Below the pieces are notes generated by a model. It searched no databases. It was given only the letters and a program-made list of their open reading frames with translations, and had not been told where the DNA came from. DNA of 23,741 nucleotides from a virus. Shown here in pieces: positions 1,139 to 19,800 of this stretch. Within the stretch, counting starts at the first letter, position 1. Each line of letters begins with the position of its first letter. The position numbers and the translations under genes are program-made. The DNA is taken from IMG/VR virus record IMGVR_UViG_3300046507_000624, positions 1 to 23,741 of that record; one strand, written 5' to 3'.

Positions 1139-2356
1139 TTATTTTACTTTAATAACCGGCTCTGAGCCAAATTCTTCTCGGAATCCTTTGCGAATCAGTC
1201 TGGATGCCAGGTCTACATCCTGAGGCTCCACCAGTATCCCATCGTGAATACCGAAAGCCTTGCGACTATAGCTCATCAATCTTCCGTAGGCCATATCGAC
1301 CATAACCTTGCTTTCTATCTTGATGCAGGCGTGATATAAATTGGCCTGGTTCTCCTCGTTGGTTTCGTTAATAAAGTCTGCCACGTTCGGAAATTTTTCG
1401 ATAAACTTATTATAGATTGGTAGTACGGTTCGGTGGCCATTCTTTGCATTGAGCATGGTCAGGAACTCTGTTTTTAAATCCGTAGACTCGTACCCGATAT
1501 AGGATGCCATTTTAGCATAGAAATCCGGCTCCTGGGACATCTTTATAAATAGGTCTGTGTCTTTGGATGAAAACCAATCCCGTTGAAGCAGGATGCCTAA
1601 AATGAACGCCATACACGCTGATACATCCACTTCACGTAAAACAATCCTAACTCCGTCCAGGGATATGAACGGGCGCATGATTTTGGGTAGCGAGGTAAAG
1701 TTGGTGTATAACCGGCCATCCTCATCTCTGTGAACATAGAAATCTTTGAAGTCTATCTCCTTTGCCCGTAAGTAGTGGCACATATATTGCATCGGGGTTA
1801 GTTCACCGGCCATCCATTTGTCTTTGATAAATTGGTATACGGCATAGTCTATACTGTATTTTTCGATATTCAGGAATGAATCCTGCTCCAAATTTTCCTT
1901 GTATTCACCAAAGGTATCTTTCAGTCGCATTGATATTAATTTCCTGGAGGTTACCCGATACTCGGAAAGCTCGCCATCAAATAAGCCTTTGGTAAACCCA
2001 TAGCTTTTGGAGCGCCCATGTATACGACTGTGATGGTGGTCAATGACGATTATTCCAGTTTCAGTGAGAACTTTCTTCACATATTTCGTTCCATCGACAC
2101 CAAGGTATCGGTGTAAAATTTCCCCGCTCAGTCCGGTTTTCTTTTCAAAGGAATGTTCTCTGCGACCTTTTACATTCACCAGATTGCCTACGAACCACAT
2201 ACACTTATCAAGGTTCATTTTAAGTGCATGATTCTTGTGGCCATCGGCCACCAAATAGTTCTTTACTTTTTCCTGAATAATTACAGGCACCATAATATCC
2301 AGGCGGTCTACTTTCTTTGTCTTGCCTTTAAATGACTCGGTTTTCAACTTCTCCAT
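1139..2356 (-). CDS. Reverse-strand protein with family A polymerase / T7 RNA polymerase-like palm motifs (405 aa)
   Basis: This is the only clear gene on the reverse strand. It has its own Shine-Dalgarno (AAGGAG before ATG at 2356) and its own promoter. Residues 212-250 read G-R-L-Y-T-N-F-T-S-L-P, then E-V-D-V-S-A-C (D244). That order resembles the 'GRL..NLQ' strand followed by motif A (D-Y-S-Q-I-E) of family A DNA polymerases. Residues 295-304, K-T-E-F-L-T-M-L-N-A, line up with motif B of T7-type polymerases (K followed 8-9 residues later by Y-G). H371-D372-G with I-L-V resembles motif C (H-D-E or H-D-S). The N-terminal 200 residues match nothing I recognise, and the protein is much shorter than a full polymerase. 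The polymerase relation is an inference from spaced motifs. The activity could be DNA or RNA synthesis or could be lost. Confidence 0.7.
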   Translation of the reverse strand: MEKLKTESFKGKTKKVDRLDIMVPVIIQEKVKNYLVADGHKNHALKMNLDKCMWFVGNLVNVKGRREHSFEKKTGLSGEILHRYLGVDGTKYVKKVLTETGIIVIDHHHSRIHGRSKSYGFTKGLFDGELSEYRVTSRKLISMRLKDTFGEYKENLEQDSFLNIEKYSIDYAVYQFIKDKWMAGELTPMQYMCHYLRAKEIDFKDFYVHRDEDGRLYTNFTSLPKIMRPFISLDGVRIVLREVDVSACMAFILGILLQRDWFSSKDTDLFIKMSQEPDFYAKMASYIGYESTDLKTEFLTMLNAKNGHRTVLPIYNKFIEKFPNVADFINETNEENQANLYHACIKIESKVMVDMAYGRLMSYSRKAFGIHDGILVEPQDVDLASRLIRKGFREEFGSEPVIKVK

Positions 2357-2376
2357 AAAATCTCCTTATAATGACA

Positions 2377-2407
2377 CAAAGATAAGATTTTAAAAATTAT
2401 TTTGCAA
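2377..2407 (-). promoter_or_regulatory. Bacteroidota-type promoter for the reverse-strand gene
   Basis: Read on the minus strand, TTG (2405-2407) is followed after exactly 20 nt by TATCTTTG (2384-2377), which fits the Bacteroidota consensus TTG...TAnnTTTG. The predicted start of transcription, about 7 nt beyond the -7 box, leaves a short leader containing the AAGGAG of the gene starting at 2356. It is back to back with the forward promoter at 2414. Confidence 0.7.
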
Positions 2408-2413
2408 CGGGTA

Positions 2414-2444
2414 TTGCAGATTAAAGTTTCGTTGTATACCTTTG
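2414..2444 (+). promoter_or_regulatory. Bacteroidota-type promoter for the early operon (2474 onward)
   Basis: TTG at 2414-2416 is followed after 20 nt by TACCTTTG at 2437-2444, a full match to TAnnTTTG. The -7 box overlaps a GTATAC hexamer (2434-2439) that recurs in other promoters of this window. It is the first promoter seen ahead of the tightly packed gene row 2474-8809. Confidence 0.75.
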
Positions 2445-4392: not shown

Positions 4393-5100
4393 ATGTGTAA
4401 AACAAAATGTGCTACGGCACCACATTGTAAATGGGGCAGCTTTTGGAGCAGCTCTCACCCATGTAAAGGAGGTTGTCAGAATCCGGTTGAGGTTGTAGGC
4501 GAGCAAGCTATCGGAGCAGCAGTTAATGAGCCTGTAATTAATTTTATTACATCGAGTGAACCAGGTTTCATTCCGGCCATTCCAGAAATTAAGCTGCCAG
4601 AATTTTTTGAAAGCACCAAAGATGCAGCTGTTAAAGTTATGCAGCAGCATCAGGATTACGGCTCAGCATTTGGTAAAACTGTTATCATTGATGAGCAGGA
4701 TTCTGTATACAGAAGCAAACTGAATTTCGAGGAGTGGTATAATAAATTCGAGGAAGAAATTGACATCGAGCTTGCTGAAACCGGCGCTGACCGTGAGATG
4801 GATTTTGACCGCGAAAAAGAATACGAAAAGCGCTATGACAAATATCTGCTCGGCCCATCAGTTCACGACAAAGCCTGGGCTGCGTGGCAGGCCGACCAAA
4901 TGGATAATATGGTGGACGTAAATGCAGCGGCTTATGTAAAGGGTTATAAAGTAGGGTACGAGGCAACCAGAAAGAAATACGACAGCGCAGAGGTTTACCT
5001 CCTGTTGAAGAAATTACTGGCTGACCACCCTTTGCACCGTGGTATACAGATTACGCCGATGATGGTTCTGAAATGGTTCGAGAAAAATAAGAAGAAATAA
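4393..5100 (+). CDS. Hypothetical protein with Cys/His-rich N-terminus (235 aa)
   Basis: The first 28 residues hold five cysteines (C2, C6, C12, C24, C28) and two histidines (H11, H22). That could be a zinc site or disulfides, although a cytosolic zinc knuckle is more likely because no signal peptide is present. A Pro/Ile-rich linker (about residues 55-72) leads to a long acidic helical region with many Glu/Asp/Lys/Tyr residues (about 105-155). A C-terminal helical part contains A-A-Y-V-K-G-Y and ends in K-N-K-K-K. The stop TAA shares one base with the ATG of the helicase gene, so the two are translationally coupled, and it may be a helicase partner. No known family is recognised. Confidence 0.65.
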   Translation: MCKTKCATAPHCKWGSFWSSSHPCKGGCQNPVEVVGEQAIGAAVNEPVINFITSSEPGFIPAIPEIKLPEFFESTKDAAVKVMQQHQDYGSAFGKTVIIDEQDSVYRSKLNFEEWYNKFEEEIDIELAETGADREMDFDREKEYEKRYDKYLLGPSVHDKAWAAWQADQMDNMVDVNAAAYVKGYKVGYEATRKKYDSAEVYLLLKKLLADHPLHRGIQITPMMVLKWFEKNKKK

Positions 5101-8100
5101 TGCTGAAAACATTTAGTGGCGAACAGCGCCTTGTATTAAGGGAAACGCTGACCACAAATAATAACATAGCCATCAATGCTACGGCAGGTGGCGGAAAATG
5201 TCATCCAAAGGATACTGAAATTCTACTTTTTAACGGCTCCGTTAAAAAAGTGCAGGACATCATTCCAGGAGATGAGTTAATGGGACCCGATTCAAAGCCG
5301 AGAACTGTTGCTGTAACGAGTGTAGGTTATGGAAAACTATTCAATATAGTTCCAATGAAAGGTGATACCTGGGGTTGCAATGAGGACCATATCCTTACGC
5401 TTCATAAAAACAACAGGCATAAGGATAACGAACTTGTAGACATTAGTGTAAAGGATTTACTCGATGAGAATTGGGCACTTCATCCTAATAAAAACTATAA
5501 GCAATTCAAATTACAGCGCACCGGAGTTGATTTTAATGAACAGCAACTTAATGTATTGCCGTACCTGGCCGGTCTTTGGGTTGGTGATGGAACCAAAATA
5601 AATGGTACGCCAAATATCTCCAATATTGATGAAGAGATAATAGACTATTTAAAGAGCCTGAATATTGATGGAATCAGCACCACAGTCTATCAGGAGAAAA
5701 CTTGCAAAAAGATAAGTCTTACAGCAGGGAAAGGTAGGTCCAATTTCATTAGAAATGAATTTAGGCGCTTTGTGGACGATAATAAAAATGTAATTATCCC
5801 ACAAGAATATCTTATTAATTCCAGAGAAAATAGATTACAGTTACTTGCAGGATTAGTGGACTCAGATGGGCACCTGCATCATGGGTTTTTTGAGATATGC
5901 ACCAAGTGGGAATCTTTGAAGAATCAGATTTTATTCCTTGCCAGAAGCCTTGGTTTTGCCGCTTATTCGAGTGTCAAGAAATTAAAATTCAACGGCAAGG
6001 ATTTACAATATCATAGAATAAGTATTTCGGGTGATATTTCAGAAGTTCCGGTAAAGCTGACAAGGAAAATGGCTGCGCCAAGAAAACAAATTAAATCTGT
6101 TCAAAGGACAGGGTTTCGGATTGAAGAGAATGGTGTCGGTGAGTATTATGGGTTTACATTAGATGGGGACGGCAGGTATTTGTTAGCAGACTTTACCATA
6201 ACACACAATACCTTCATCCTGATTGAGATTGCCCGATTACTTCCGCAATCATCCAGTGCAAATTTCCTGGCTTTTAATAAATCTATCGTGGAAGAATTGG
6301 CTGACAAGTTGCCATCCGGATTCGACTGCATGACACTTCATTCACTCGGAATCAAAGCACTGTACCGACATTTCGGTTCCGGCGTAACGGTATCGGAGGC
6401 TAAGTACAAACGGATGCTTGCTAAGGTCATGGAGAAATTTAAGGACGATATAGCCAAGAAAGAATATAATGGAATCCTGTACGGCCTATGCGAAAAATGG
6501 GAAAAGCGTTGCGTTACTCTGAGCCTGGAAGTTCCTGTTGTTGCAGAAGATGCGCCGGTAGAGGATAAGATTTGGGCAGCATTTGTGGCTCAGGCCGATA
6601 AGGTTAATAAAGCGAAACCTAAGCGTGGTATTAAGTTCGAGGTAAGTTTCACAGACATGATTTTTTTACCTGTATACCTGAATCTAAAAATGCCTCAATG
6701 GGATACAGTCTTATTAGATGAGTCCCAAGACCTTAATAATTGTCAGCACGAATTAGTGAATATGATTATTGGTAAAAGCGGTAGACTAATAAGTGTAGGT
6801 GATAGTGAGCAATGTCAGCCGGAGGGTACTTTAGTAACGATGGCAGACCGCACTCAAAAAAGAATTGAGGATATAGTGGTTGGTGATACAGTTGCCACAT
6901 TCTCTTGCGCCAACGGCTCCAAGTATTTATTCAATGGAGCCGTTACCCAGGTGGCAAGTCGATTTGTGGACGAACCAATTATTGAATTAAGGTCTGGCGG
7001 AAAGTTGACTCAGTACACAGGAAATCATAAATGTGTAGTTAGAATAAAGGATGAACCTAACTTATATGTATTATATCTCATGCAGAGAGGAAATAGTTTC
7101 AGAATTGGAAAAACCTCCTGGTATGATAACCGTTTTCTTGGCAAAAGGATGGGGCAAGAGGGGTGTGATGGACTTTGGGTTCTAAAGGTTTCTAAAAATA
7201 AAGAGGAGATTGATATTGATGAAACTGTTTATAGTTATCAGTATGGTATACCTCAATTAATATGGAATGGTGGAGGCAACTATACTGAATATCAATCTGA
7301 TATGCTTGCGAAAAAATGGGCTGCTTTGGAGGAACGGATTTCTTTAAGAGAAAGAGCCGTTCGGATACTAACTCATTTCAACAGAGATATACGATACCCT
7401 TTATGGAAAAAAGAAAAGGTGTTCAAGAGAGGTAATTTCGTTACAGAAGCCTGCAATCTTATTCCTGAATATATGTACGTGAATCATTTCAATGATGAAT
7501 GTAATTCAAAAGATGGTCGGCAGAAACAAGGTGAGTGGATGACTATTGATAAGATTGAGCTATTGCCTTATGAGGGGAAAGTTTATTCACTCAATATCGA
7601 CAAACATCACACTTACGTAGCAGATGGGGTTTTGACCCACAATTGCATCTATGGTTTCGCCGGAAGTAATCCGGAATCCTTTAAGAAATTCGCTCAGCGC
7701 CCGAATACGGTTGAATACCCACTATCGGTTACTTACCGTTGTGCTAAGCAGATTGTAGCCCATGCACGTCAGTACAGCAATAAAATAGAGGCCCATCCTG
7801 ATGCACCGGAGGGATTGGTTCGAGAGGGCACATTGGATGAGGTTGTTCCAGGAGATTTTATTCTCTGCCGAAATAATGCGCCACTTATTGCCGCATACTT
7901 TAATCTACTCCAGGATGACCAGAAAGCCTACATAGTGGGCAAGGATACACGGGACGAGTACATTAAGATGACCAAACCGTTCGCCAGTTCTCACATCCAG
8001 GCGCTGCTTGACCATTGGGATAATATGGTGGATGAGTTATATAATAAGTTGCAATCGCTTGGTATACGTAGACCTGAGAAAGTTGACTCATACATGCTGT

Positions 8101-8411
8101 TACAAGAAAAAGTACATGGCCTGGGGATTATCGCCAGTAAGTGCAGCTCAGTAAAGCAAATGATTGCCAAAATAGGCACCATATTTGAGCCGTCAAAGGA
8201 CTCGATTATTTTATCGACCATCCATAAGGCGAAAGGGTTAGAGGCTCACAGAGTCTACCTATTGCGGTGGGAATTGATGTTCAGCAAGTGCGAAACGCCG
8301 GAGGACATGGAGCAGGAACGCAACTTGGCTTTCGTGGCCATTACAAGAGCAAAAGAAGAATTAGTATTTATAATTGAACCTAAAGAAGAGGAGGAAGAAG
8401 ATGAAGATTAA
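5100..8411 (+). CDS. SF1 (UvrD/Rep/Dda-like) DNA helicase precursor with two inteins
   Basis: The 1103-aa precursor would splice to a helicase of 489 aa. Extein motifs in order: motif I A-T-A-G-G-G-K|T (split by intein 1 after K33), Ib T-L-H-S-L-G (412-417), II V-L-L-D-E-S-Q-D (537-544), III V-G-D-S-E-Q|C-I-Y-G-F-A-G (split by intein 2 after Q571), IV L-S-V-T-Y-R-C, V S-T-I-H-K-A-K-G-L-E (1039-1048), and VI E-R-N-L-A-F-V-A-I-T-R-A-K (1073-1085). These are the signatures of ATP-driven 3'-5' or Dda-type superfamily 1A helicases, which act in replication start, fork restart or recombination. The C-terminus is a run of acidic residues. Both inteins interrupt ATP-binding motifs, so the helicase should be inactive until splicing. 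It overlaps both neighbours (1 nt and 11 nt). Confidence 0.92.
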   Translation: MLKTFSGEQRLVLRETLTTNNNIAINATAGGGKCHPKDTEILLFNGSVKKVQDIIPGDELMGPDSKPRTVAVTSVGYGKLFNIVPMKGDTWGCNEDHILTLHKNNRHKDNELVDISVKDLLDENWALHPNKNYKQFKLQRTGVDFNEQQLNVLPYLAGLWVGDGTKINGTPNISNIDEEIIDYLKSLNIDGISTTVYQEKTCKKISLTAGKGRSNFIRNEFRRFVDDNKNVIIPQEYLINSRENRLQLLAGLVDSDGHLHHGFFEICTKWESLKNQILFLARSLGFAAYSSVKKLKFNGKDLQYHRISISGDISEVPVKLTRKMAAPRKQIKSVQRTGFRIEENGVGEYYGFTLDGDGRYLLADFTITHNTFILIEIARLLPQSSSANFLAFNKSIVEELADKLPSGFDCMTLHSLGIKALYRHFGSGVTVSEAKYKRMLAKVMEKFKDDIAKKEYNGILYGLCEKWEKRCVTLSLEVPVVAEDAPVEDKIWAAFVAQADKVNKAKPKRGIKFEVSFTDMIFLPVYLNLKMPQWDTVLLDESQDLNNCQHELVNMIIGKSGRLISVGDSEQCQPEGTLVTMADRTQKRIEDIVVGDTVATFSCANGSKYLFNGAVTQVASRFVDEPIIELRSGGKLTQYTGNHKCVVRIKDEPNLYVLYLMQRGNSFRIGKTSWYDNRFLGKRMGQEGCDGLWVLKVSKNKEEIDIDETVYSYQYGIPQLIWNGGGNYTEYQSDMLAKKWAALEERISLRERAVRILTHFNRDIRYPLWKKEKVFKRGNFVTEACNLIPEYMYVNHFNDECNSKDGRQKQGEWMTIDKIELLPYEGKVYSLNIDKHHTYVADGVLTHNCIYGFAGSNPESFKKFAQRPNTVEYPLSVTYRCAKQIVAHARQYSNKIEAHPDAPEGLVREGTLDEVVPGDFILCRNNAPLIAAYFNLLQDDQKAYIVGKDTRDEYIKMTKPFASSHIQALLDHWDNMVDELYNKLQSLGIRRPEKVDSYMLLQEKVHGLGIIASKCSSVKQMIAKIGTIFEPSKDSIILSTIHKAKGLEAHRVYLLRWELMFSKCETPEDMEQERNLAFVAITRAKEELVFIIEPKEEEEEDED
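5199..6209 (+). mobile_element. Intein 1 with LAGLIDADG homing endonuclease (337 aa), in helicase motif I
   Basis: The element runs from C34 to N370 of the precursor. The N-terminal block has C34 followed by T-E-I-L-L-F-N-G-S-V. Block B carries N-E-D-H, and the C-terminal block ends in T-I-T-H-N before Thr+1 of the extein, so Cys at the first position, His-Asn at the end and a Thr nucleophile are all in place for splicing. Two LAGLIDADG motifs lie in the centre: L-A-G-L-W-V-G-D-G (156-164) and L-A-G-L-V-D-S-D-G (249-257), each with its acidic residue, so the homing endonuclease may be active. Removing the element restores A-T-A-G-G-G-K-T, an intact Walker A. Confidence 0.93.
6813..7643 (+). 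mobile_element. Intein 2 (277 aa), in helicase motif III, no LAGLIDADG
   Basis: The element runs from C572 to N848. It begins C-Q-P-E-G-T-L-V and continues D-I-V-V-G-D. Block B is T-G-N-H-K-C-V-V, and the end is V-Y-S-L-N-I-D, H-H-T-Y-V-A-D-G-V-L-T-H-N before Cys+1. All residues needed for splicing are present. Excision joins S-E-Q to C-I-Y-G-F-A-G, rebuilding helicase motif III. Between the splicing blocks (about residues 655-800) there is an insert without a LAGLIDADG motif. It contains V-L-Y-L-M-Q-R-G, F-R-I-G-K-T, a G-L-W-V-L segment and S-Y-Q-Y-G-I-P. It might be a degenerate GIY-YIG-like fold or another accessory domain, but this is not secure. Confidence 0.9.
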
Positions 8412-12719: not shown

Positions 12720-12750
12720 TTGCAAAATTGGTATACATTCACTACTTTTG
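12720..12750 (+). promoter_or_regulatory. Bacteroidota-type promoter for the ssDNA-binding-like gene
   Basis: TTG (12720-12722), a 20-nt spacer and TACTTTTG (12743-12750) match the TTG...TAnnTTTG consensus. GTATAC hexamers lie in the spacer (12731-12736) and 40 nt upstream (12679-12684). The predicted leader is about 35 nt and carries AGGAGG before the ATG at 12793. Confidence 0.75.
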
Positions 12751-14228: not shown

Positions 14229-14783
14229 ATGAGAGAGATTAAGATAGCGAATAGCGACAAAGTGGCCCTGGTTGATGACGAAGATTTTGAATTGGTTAAT
14301 CAGCATAGTTGGTGTATAGTGGGCGCATTAAGGAATTACCAAGGCTCAAAAATTGGAAATAAAATCATTTATATGCACTTATTTATAATGGGTGATTGCG
14401 ATGGTGTTGTGGACCATATCGACAGAGATACATTCAATAACACAAAGTCCAATTTAAGAGTTGTTACACGTTCTGAAAATTCTCTCAATAGAGTTGCCAA
14501 TAAAGGTGCATCAAGCAAATATAAAGGAGTCTTTGTTCGCAAGCCAGGAATATTCAGGGCTATTGTAAGCAGGAGAGTGAACGGGAAGCATTTAATGTTT
14601 CATAACGGGACTTACCGCTCAGAAGAGTTGGCTGCATTAGCCTATGATAAAAAGGCCTTAGAGGTATTTGCTGACGTGGACAGAAGTATATTAAGACTAA
14701 ACATCGACACATTTCCAGAACTAATTAATTATGAGAAAAAAAATACCGATAGCAGTTCTACTAACGGACTCACACCTACATAA
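14229..14783 (+). CDS. Free-standing HNH homing endonuclease with AP2 DNA-binding domain
   Basis: The 184-aa protein has an HNH core with H50 (Y-M-H), D62-H63 (V-D-H-I-D) and N70-N71 followed by S-N-L-R-V-V-T and S-E-N-S-L-N. An AP2-type DNA-binding domain (about 96-157) follows with S-K-Y-K-G-V, F-R-A-I-V and A-A-L-A-Y-D. This is the common build of phage HNH-AP2 homing endonucleases, which cut an allele lacking the gene and spread by repair. It lies between the terminator and the SbcD-like gene. Its last 17 codons overlap the start of that gene by 53 nt in another frame, so it probably inserted there and captured a stop by read-through. Confidence 0.88.
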   Translation: MREIKIANSDKVALVDDEDFELVNQHSWCIVGALRNYQGSKIGNKIIYMHLFIMGDCDGVVDHIDRDTFNNTKSNLRVVTRSENSLNRVANKGASSKYKGVFVRKPGIFRAIVSRRVNGKHLMFHNGTYRSEELAALAYDKKALEVFADVDRSILRLNIDTFPELINYEKKNTDSSSTNGLTPT

Positions 14784-19212: not shown

Positions 19213-19792
19213 TAAAGACCTTTTGTTGGAAATATATTCTTTCCTGCATATAGGAATACTTGATAAGACGATTAAGAGAATTAACCTTGCCCAAAACGGG
19301 CAGGGTAAAACTCTTGAAAAATTCCACGCCAAATTGCTGAAAAAATTCGGTGAGAACATCGGTTCCGACTGGATGGTGGATTATTGCCTGTATCAGGTCC
19401 ATTACTGGCACGACAAGACCGTTCAGAATAAGTTGACCTTAGGTTGGACGATGGGTGATAAAGCGCTTGACAGGTACTTAAAACGGCCACAAGGCAAGTC
19501 TTTCTATGAAGATAAGATGTTGAAGCGAAAGCTCGGCCTTACCAGAGAGGAATTAAAGGACAAGTGGCGTAAAGTTGTAGTGGACCACCCATTAATGAAG
19601 TACAAGCACACGCCTCAGGAGGATGCTATTAAGAAACAATTCTTGAACCAGGATGTCGGATACTATCAGTGCCTGACGATGACCACCATGATTTCGGATA
19701 GTGAAGTTTGCAAGGGGTGCCGCTTTACGGAGGAGTGTAAAAAAAGTTTAAAGAAATTTTCACCGGAGCTTGCAAGAGTCAGAGGGATGTAG
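19199..19792 (+). CDS. Hypothetical protein with C-terminal cysteine cluster (197 aa)
   Basis: The ATG at 19199 (14-nt overlap with the sigma factor gene) is chosen over an upstream TTG at 19178. The protein is helical and basic and contains W-M-V-D-Y-C-L-Y-Q-V-H-Y-W-H (58-71). Its end carries C171-K-G-C174-R-F-T-E-E-C180, and C158 could complete a four-Cys metal site. No family is recognised. Coupling to the sigma factor suggests it might act in transcription control, but that is only contextual. Confidence 0.65.
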   Translation: MQENNKDLLLEIYSFLHIGILDKTIKRINLAQNGQGKTLEKFHAKLLKKFGENIGSDWMVDYCLYQVHYWHDKTVQNKLTLGWTMGDKALDRYLKRPQGKSFYEDKMLKRKLGLTREELKDKWRKVVVDHPLMKYKHTPQEDAIKKQFLNQDVGYYQCLTMTTMISDSEVCKGCRFTEECKKSLKKFSPELARVRGM

Positions 19793-19800
19793 TAGTTTTG
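19770..19800 (+). promoter_or_regulatory. Bacteroidota-type promoter for the DnaB-like gene region
   Basis: TTG (19770-19772), exactly 20 nt, then TAGTTTTG (19793-19800) fit the TTG...TAnnTTTG pattern. The -35-like part lies inside the end of the preceding gene and the -7 box starts right after its stop codon. The bases after TTG (CAA) are shared with the promoters at 2405 (minus) and 12720. Confidence 0.65.

Follow-up and report, generated by a model that had tools for sequence, protein, structure and literature searches.

Why would a phage that encodes a DnaE-type polymerase also carry a second, small polymerase-like protein in a lone gene on the opposite strand? The question is raised by a 23.7-kb viral record (IMGVR_UViG_3300046507_000624), a fragment that we call the window (the whole stretch of 23,741 nucleotides analyzed) and of which ten genes were scanned for domains. 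A preliminary description of the sequence had noted a gene for a 405-amino-acid (aa) protein, placed between structural and replication genes, with its own promoter and with spaced motifs of family A/T7-type polymerases. Fold and homology, as analyzed here, support a second, small family-A-like polymerase. We think it fairly probable that the protein is a compact accessory polymerase of the family-A superfamily, which would probably not be the core replicase and for which short-patch DNA synthesis would be the likeliest activity. The features discussed below are listed in Table 1.

Table 1. Positions of the polymerase-like gene, its predicted domains and motifs, and the associated expression signals
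Feature	Positions in window	Strand	Basis
Compact family-A-like polymerase gene, 405 codons (stop included in interval)	1139-2356	-	ORF, leave-one-out HMM, fold
Ribosome-binding site AAGGAG, 5 nt upstream of ATG	2362-2367	-	Sequence
Promoter TTGCA-N18-TATCTTTG, Bacteroidota type (form TTGCA-N18-TAnnTTTG), for polymerase gene	2377-2407	-	Pattern count
Divergent promoter of same type, serving forward genes from 2474	2414-2444	+	Pattern count
Further TTGCA-N18-TAnnTTTG sites	12720-12750, 19770-19800	+	Pattern count
N-terminal domain, residues 19-121: helices, then beta-hairpin (103-111/114-121)	1994-2302	-	Model secondary structure, family alignment
Thumb-like helices, residues 137-205	1742-1948	-	Model; Bst/Klenow structural alignments begin near 138-158
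DX2GR motif D-E-D-G-R-L-Y, residues 211-217	1706-1726	-	D211, G214, R215 in 40/40
Motif A E-V-D244-V-S-A-C-M-A, residues 242-250	1607-1633	-	D244 in 40/40
Motif B/O-helix, residues 291-306, K295 with K-x7-N-A	1439-1486	-	K295 in 40/40
Motif C G-I-H371-D372-G-I-L, residues 369-375	1232-1252	-	H371, D372 in 40/40

A reverse-strand gene ahead of a replication module

The gene has an intact frame with an ATG start and is, as first described, the only one on the reverse strand, the rest of the window being coded forward. Its stop directly adjoins the stop of the convergent gene at 704 to 1138, and its G+C content is 42.4%, versus 42.6% for the whole window. The promoter proposed for it was also borne out: the pattern TTGCA-N18-TAnnTTTG occurs at four sites in the window versus 0.23 expected, none of 100 shuffles got to four, and all four sites have identical spacing and lie ahead of a gene. 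The TAnnTTTG −7 element is the consensus of the Bacteroidota primary sigma factor (PMC7366714). The pattern is a promoter motif of Bacteroidota or phage-sigma type in which a TTGCA upstream box replaces TTTG.

The placement between structural and replication genes likewise holds. Upstream lies a tail-fibre-like open reading frame (ORF; assigned by eye), and downstream are genes for RNase H (3165) and a UvrD-type helicase (5100), NrdB- and NrdA-like genes (both assigned by eye, NrdA being backed by a match to Bacteroides phage BS-TP1), and genes for a NinB-like protein, SbcD, SbcC, a sigma factor, and a DnaB-type helicase with an adjoining Toprim primase. The record ends within a PHP/DnaE ORF, the N-terminal 288 aa of which fall inside the window; this ORF matches annotated DNA polymerase III alpha subunits of Bacteroides, Chryseobacterium, and Cellulophaga phages, in agreement with the DnaE-type polymerase reported for this phage. 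The UvrD-type helicase gene (5100 to 8411, + strand) is split by two intein-like insertions, one with Hint plus LAGLIDADG/Hom_end domains and the other with a second intein splicing domain. An HNH/AP2 homing-endonuclease-like gene (14229 to 14780, + strand) is inserted immediately before the SbcD gene, which it overlaps.

The window had no relatives at the DNA level in the phage collection, and its nearest annotated relative is BS-TP1; the two are collinear from NrdA through DnaE. Given this synteny and the promoter type, we infer that the host is very probably a member of the Bacteroidota. A search of the whole BS-TP1 record returned no member of the compact polymerase family described below. 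Since BS-TP1 has the collinear module and lacks such a gene, the polymerase gene is an accessory gene ahead of a complete replication module. For the same reason, and given that DnaE, a Toprim primase, and DnaB are encoded by the phage itself, the protein is probably neither the core replicase nor the only primase of the phage.

Relatives in large phages and their invariant residues

Searches with the protein and with family profiles against Pfam, NCBIfam, and PDB sequences gave no polymerase match over threshold. PF00476 (Pfam DNA_pol_A) matched neither anything in the window nor any of 34 family members, so we file the protein as a relative of DNA_pol_A by fold rather than as a member by sequence. 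Relatives were reached from a single seed in a 642-kb phage (E = 1e-4, tblastn against phages), from which alignment-guided scans led first to 29 and later to 78 viral loci, on partly shared contigs; further members occur in huge phages of 595 to 735 kb. Clustering at 65% identity left 33 family representatives. The family is thus spread over many viral contigs, mostly of large or huge phages, and one plasmid, p_unnamed4 of Hymenobacter qilianensis (WP_187734701, locus L049, 5926 to 7497), which also encodes its own replication initiation protein. A family HMM built with the window protein left out recovers it at E = 1.2e-33 over residues 43 to 400, N-terminal domain included.

More direct searches were empty: a plasmid search with the window protein returned nothing, and neither a single-sequence scan of viral contigs nor genome-contig scans returned a relative. 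The exact pattern GR[LMI]YTNFT hit 13 contigs, none of them containing a family member. When closer kin were sought with the window protein plus one relative (L052), the sole return was the contig of L052 itself, and a search via the gene at 4393 to 5100 found a conserved stretch of 49 aa and no family member.

Conservation was assessed in an alignment of 40 members (the window protein and 39 relatives). Ten residues are invariant in all 40: D211, G214, R215, D244, Y280, K295, P323, E348, H371, and D372. Because the residues of the proposed polymerase motifs are the unvaried columns, the motif match is more than chance. D244, K295, and D372, named in the preliminary description as the diagnostic residues, are thus conserved in relatives, and its residue numbers (G214-R215-L-Y-T-N-F-T, E242-V-D244, K295, H371-D372-G) are all correct, as is the spacing from K295 to N-A, with N303 and A304 lying eight and nine residues on.

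The family gene occurs together with a PolB gene in 13 of the 18 relatives' records checked and with DnaE in two, and this usual coexistence with a replicase suggests that the family represents an auxiliary polymerase. In two relatives (L048, 3617 to 6063; L050, 3998 to 6447), it has an ATGA overlap with a truncated, PF00476-positive polymerase gene of ~425 aa. The phages with these two loci also carry DnaE, and two family-A-type palms share one operon there.

Predicted fold and kinship with divPolA2

An AlphaFold2 model made with 36 aligned sequences (pLDDT, 81.8; pTM, 0.77; pLDDT of 83 to 97 across most of the palm and fingers) shows a family-A palm, fingers, and thumb, the outcome on which the polymerase reading had been staked. 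In a Foldseek search of the PDB, each of the 50 matches listed is a family-A DNA polymerase (E from 3.8e-5). VIA-align gave a Z score of 14.7 to T7 DNA polymerase (234 residues, 3.0 Å), 14.4 to Pol theta, ~14 to Bst, and 13.6 to Klenow; the alignments to solved structures span residues 158 to 405 at Z ~14. With these enzymes the protein shares the fold and the order of DX2GR and motifs A, B, and C. Unlike them, it is much shorter (128 residues from motif A to C versus 179 in T7 DNA polymerase), lacks an exonuclease, and has an altered pocket. Going by the aligned fold, D244, D372, and K295 would share one active site. The N-terminal domain, in which Y119 is conserved across the family alignment, appears winged-helix-like by its predicted secondary structure and had no sequence match among solved structures.

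Is the likeness to DNA polymerases or to the single-subunit RNA polymerases? A small RNA polymerase of T7 or mitochondrial type, transcribing phage genes, would account for the DX2GR motif, which has the exact D-x2-G-R-x-Y spacing of T7 RNA polymerase (T7 RNAP; D421-W-R-G-R-V-Y), for the loss of the acidic residue five positions after the motif A aspartate (M249), and for a match to POLRMT (Z ~14) obtained with a first, poorer model; RNA synthesis is also among the roles considered for the related divPolA2 proteins (PMC11348598). However, POLRMT is not among the 50 matches listed for the second, better model, all of which are DNA polymerases. Motifs A and B are 51 residues apart, close to the 47 of T7 DNA polymerase (T7 DNAP) and far from the 94 of T7 RNAP. 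Single sequences of T7 RNAP and T7 DNAP gave no significant hhalign match, the T7 DNAP alignment being in the correct motif B register. Furthermore, only ~137 residues precede the thumb, leaving no large N-terminal domain for promoter binding, and the phage has a sigma factor and host-type promoters. We therefore regard a T7-type transcriptase as very improbable and the least likely of the roles weighed here. The family A part of the original assignment stands on fold and motifs, while its T7-type, RNA-synthesizing part is disfavored.

Among viral models, two proteins match end to end (403 to 409 aa, TM of 0.74 to 0.77): A0A8D9FR19, annotated as "Putative DNA polymerase I" of an uncultured marine phage, and A0A516L5C2. 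Both have the length and full-length fold of the window protein at 16 to 19% identity to it, and the polymerase name is an annotation. Below them come proteins of the divPolA2 type, among them that of Barba31A, with virophage replication proteins low in the list.

The divPolA2 proteins, described in 2024, are second, non-replicative polymerases of ICP1, barbaviruses, and other Vibrio and Aeromonas phages, which possibly act in repair or in making RNA (PMC11348598). Among PHROGs, the window protein matches phrog_4756 best, weakly at E = 0.0043 (8e-5 for L052); since the divPolA2 representative AUR84708 matches phrog_4756 at 1.8e-91, this is the divPolA2 family. An hhalign comparison of our family with six divPolA2 proteins covered all motifs at a probability of 96.5 and E = 9e-10 (1.2e-8 when the window protein was left out, 3.7e-4 when it was used alone), and reversed-profile controls were not significant (E > 0.7). 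Like the window protein, divPolA2 (~430 aa) has no exonuclease and occurs in phages that also have a regular DNA polymerase. In contrast, the N-terminal regions of the two did not align, and motif C of AUR84708 reads F-D where the window protein has H-D. The divPolA2 of Vibrio phage ICP1 (QVV99756.1, L139, 2501 to 3805) is 41% identical to AUR84708 and is annotated as a hypothetical protein.

Profile and model comparisons together suggest that the family is an apparently undescribed, divergent group of compact family-A polymerases akin to divPolA2. A large huge-phage family of small polymerase-like proteins, carried beside a full replicase, absent from Pfam and NCBIfam, and largely unannotated, would add to the minimal family-A enzymes already described (TV-Pol, CCPol, and divPolA2). 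It bears on how a single core gave rise to primases, DNA polymerases, and T7-type RNA polymerases, and on the persistence of second polymerases in large phages. With its invariant residues and its size of 400 aa, activity is directly testable.

Nucleotide pocket and possible roles

The predicted layout comprises the winged-helix-like N-terminal domain, thumb helices, the DX2GR beta-hairpin, and the palm and fingers, with no exonuclease. An enzyme of this kind would extend a primer by a two-metal mechanism of nucleotide addition, as Pol I does. By analogy with Pol I, D244 and D372 would coordinate the metals, the fingers-helix residue K295 would bind the triphosphate, and R215 would touch the template/primer; the N-terminal domain may help in gripping DNA. 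Expressed from its own promoter, the protein could serve in gap filling, repair, lesion bypass, or recombination-linked priming. Among these roles we favor short synthesis in repair or recombination, ahead of primer making.

Primer making deserves consideration because of small family-A polymerases in other mobile elements. TV-Pol, the name under which minimal family-A enzymes from mobile elements were described earlier, was predicted to combine primase and polymerase (Iyer et al. 2008, PMC2579912); going by its description, it shares with the window protein a minimal core of thumb, beta-hairpin arginine, palm, and fingers. Its RxxxK arginine, however, is serine in the window protein. Among these minimal enzymes, biochemical results were found for CCPol-MP of SCCmec, a family-A primase shown to synthesize DNA primers; CCPol without MP cannot prime (PMC7581432). 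CCPol-MP and the PolA-SSB primases (PMC7581432, PMC10061031) pair with an SSB-like partner, whereas the window protein has its own N-terminal domain, which in a primase-polymerase starting chains de novo could replace the single-stranded DNA-binding partner. The overlapping genes at L048 and L050 would also suit such an enzyme, as if one product primes and the other extends. On the other hand, the phage already has a Toprim primase beside DnaB. A D5-like helicase was found neither fused to the protein nor among the ten scanned genes of this fragment record, in which DnaB and UvrD are present, and no OB-fold partner was identified, the neighbor at 704 to 1138 being without a Pfam match. We consider a primase-polymerase unlikely overall, if the strongest of the alternatives to short-patch synthesis.

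The pocket of the window protein differs from that of its relatives. Residues 247 to 249 of motif A are A-C-M in the window protein and N-S-Q in all 39 other members. On the fingers helix, residue 303 is asparagine where 38 of 39 relatives have phenylalanine (K-x7-F-G), and residue 291 is serine where 36 of 39 have arginine or lysine. An RxxxK sequence on this helix is common in family A and not strictly defining; S291 breaks it in the window protein, and the lysine is kept. Three further changes from near-universal family residues are peculiar to this copy (Q345 to I, T369 to G, and S373 to G). In Pol I, an acidic residue five positions after the motif A aspartate acts as the steric gate; this position is glutamine in the family, methionine (M249) in the window protein, and glutamate in AUR84708. 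Since near-universal residues of the predicted pocket differ in the window protein alone, it is possible that substrate choice is altered or activity lost.

The latter outcome would make the protein a palm that is catalytically weak or dead and retained as a DNA-binding or regulatory factor. Changes confined to this copy (NSQ to ACM, F303N, Q345I, S373G, and R291S) are consistent with such decay, as is a lone accessory gene with a separate promoter that BS-TP1 lacks. Against it, the metal, triphosphate, and DX2GR residues are all retained, and the frame is intact at a G+C content like that of the window. We hold this reading to be rather improbable, and less so than an RNA polymerase; short-patch synthesis remains our preferred role. 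Still more doubtful is a third view of the same substitutions, in which the window protein would be the first of a sub-lineage with a remodelled pocket (ACM, N303, and G373) and unusual substrate choice, carried in addition to a full DnaE replisome. If so, the remodelled pocket might admit, for example, ribonucleotides, modified deoxynucleoside triphosphates (dNTPs), or template-poor synthesis.
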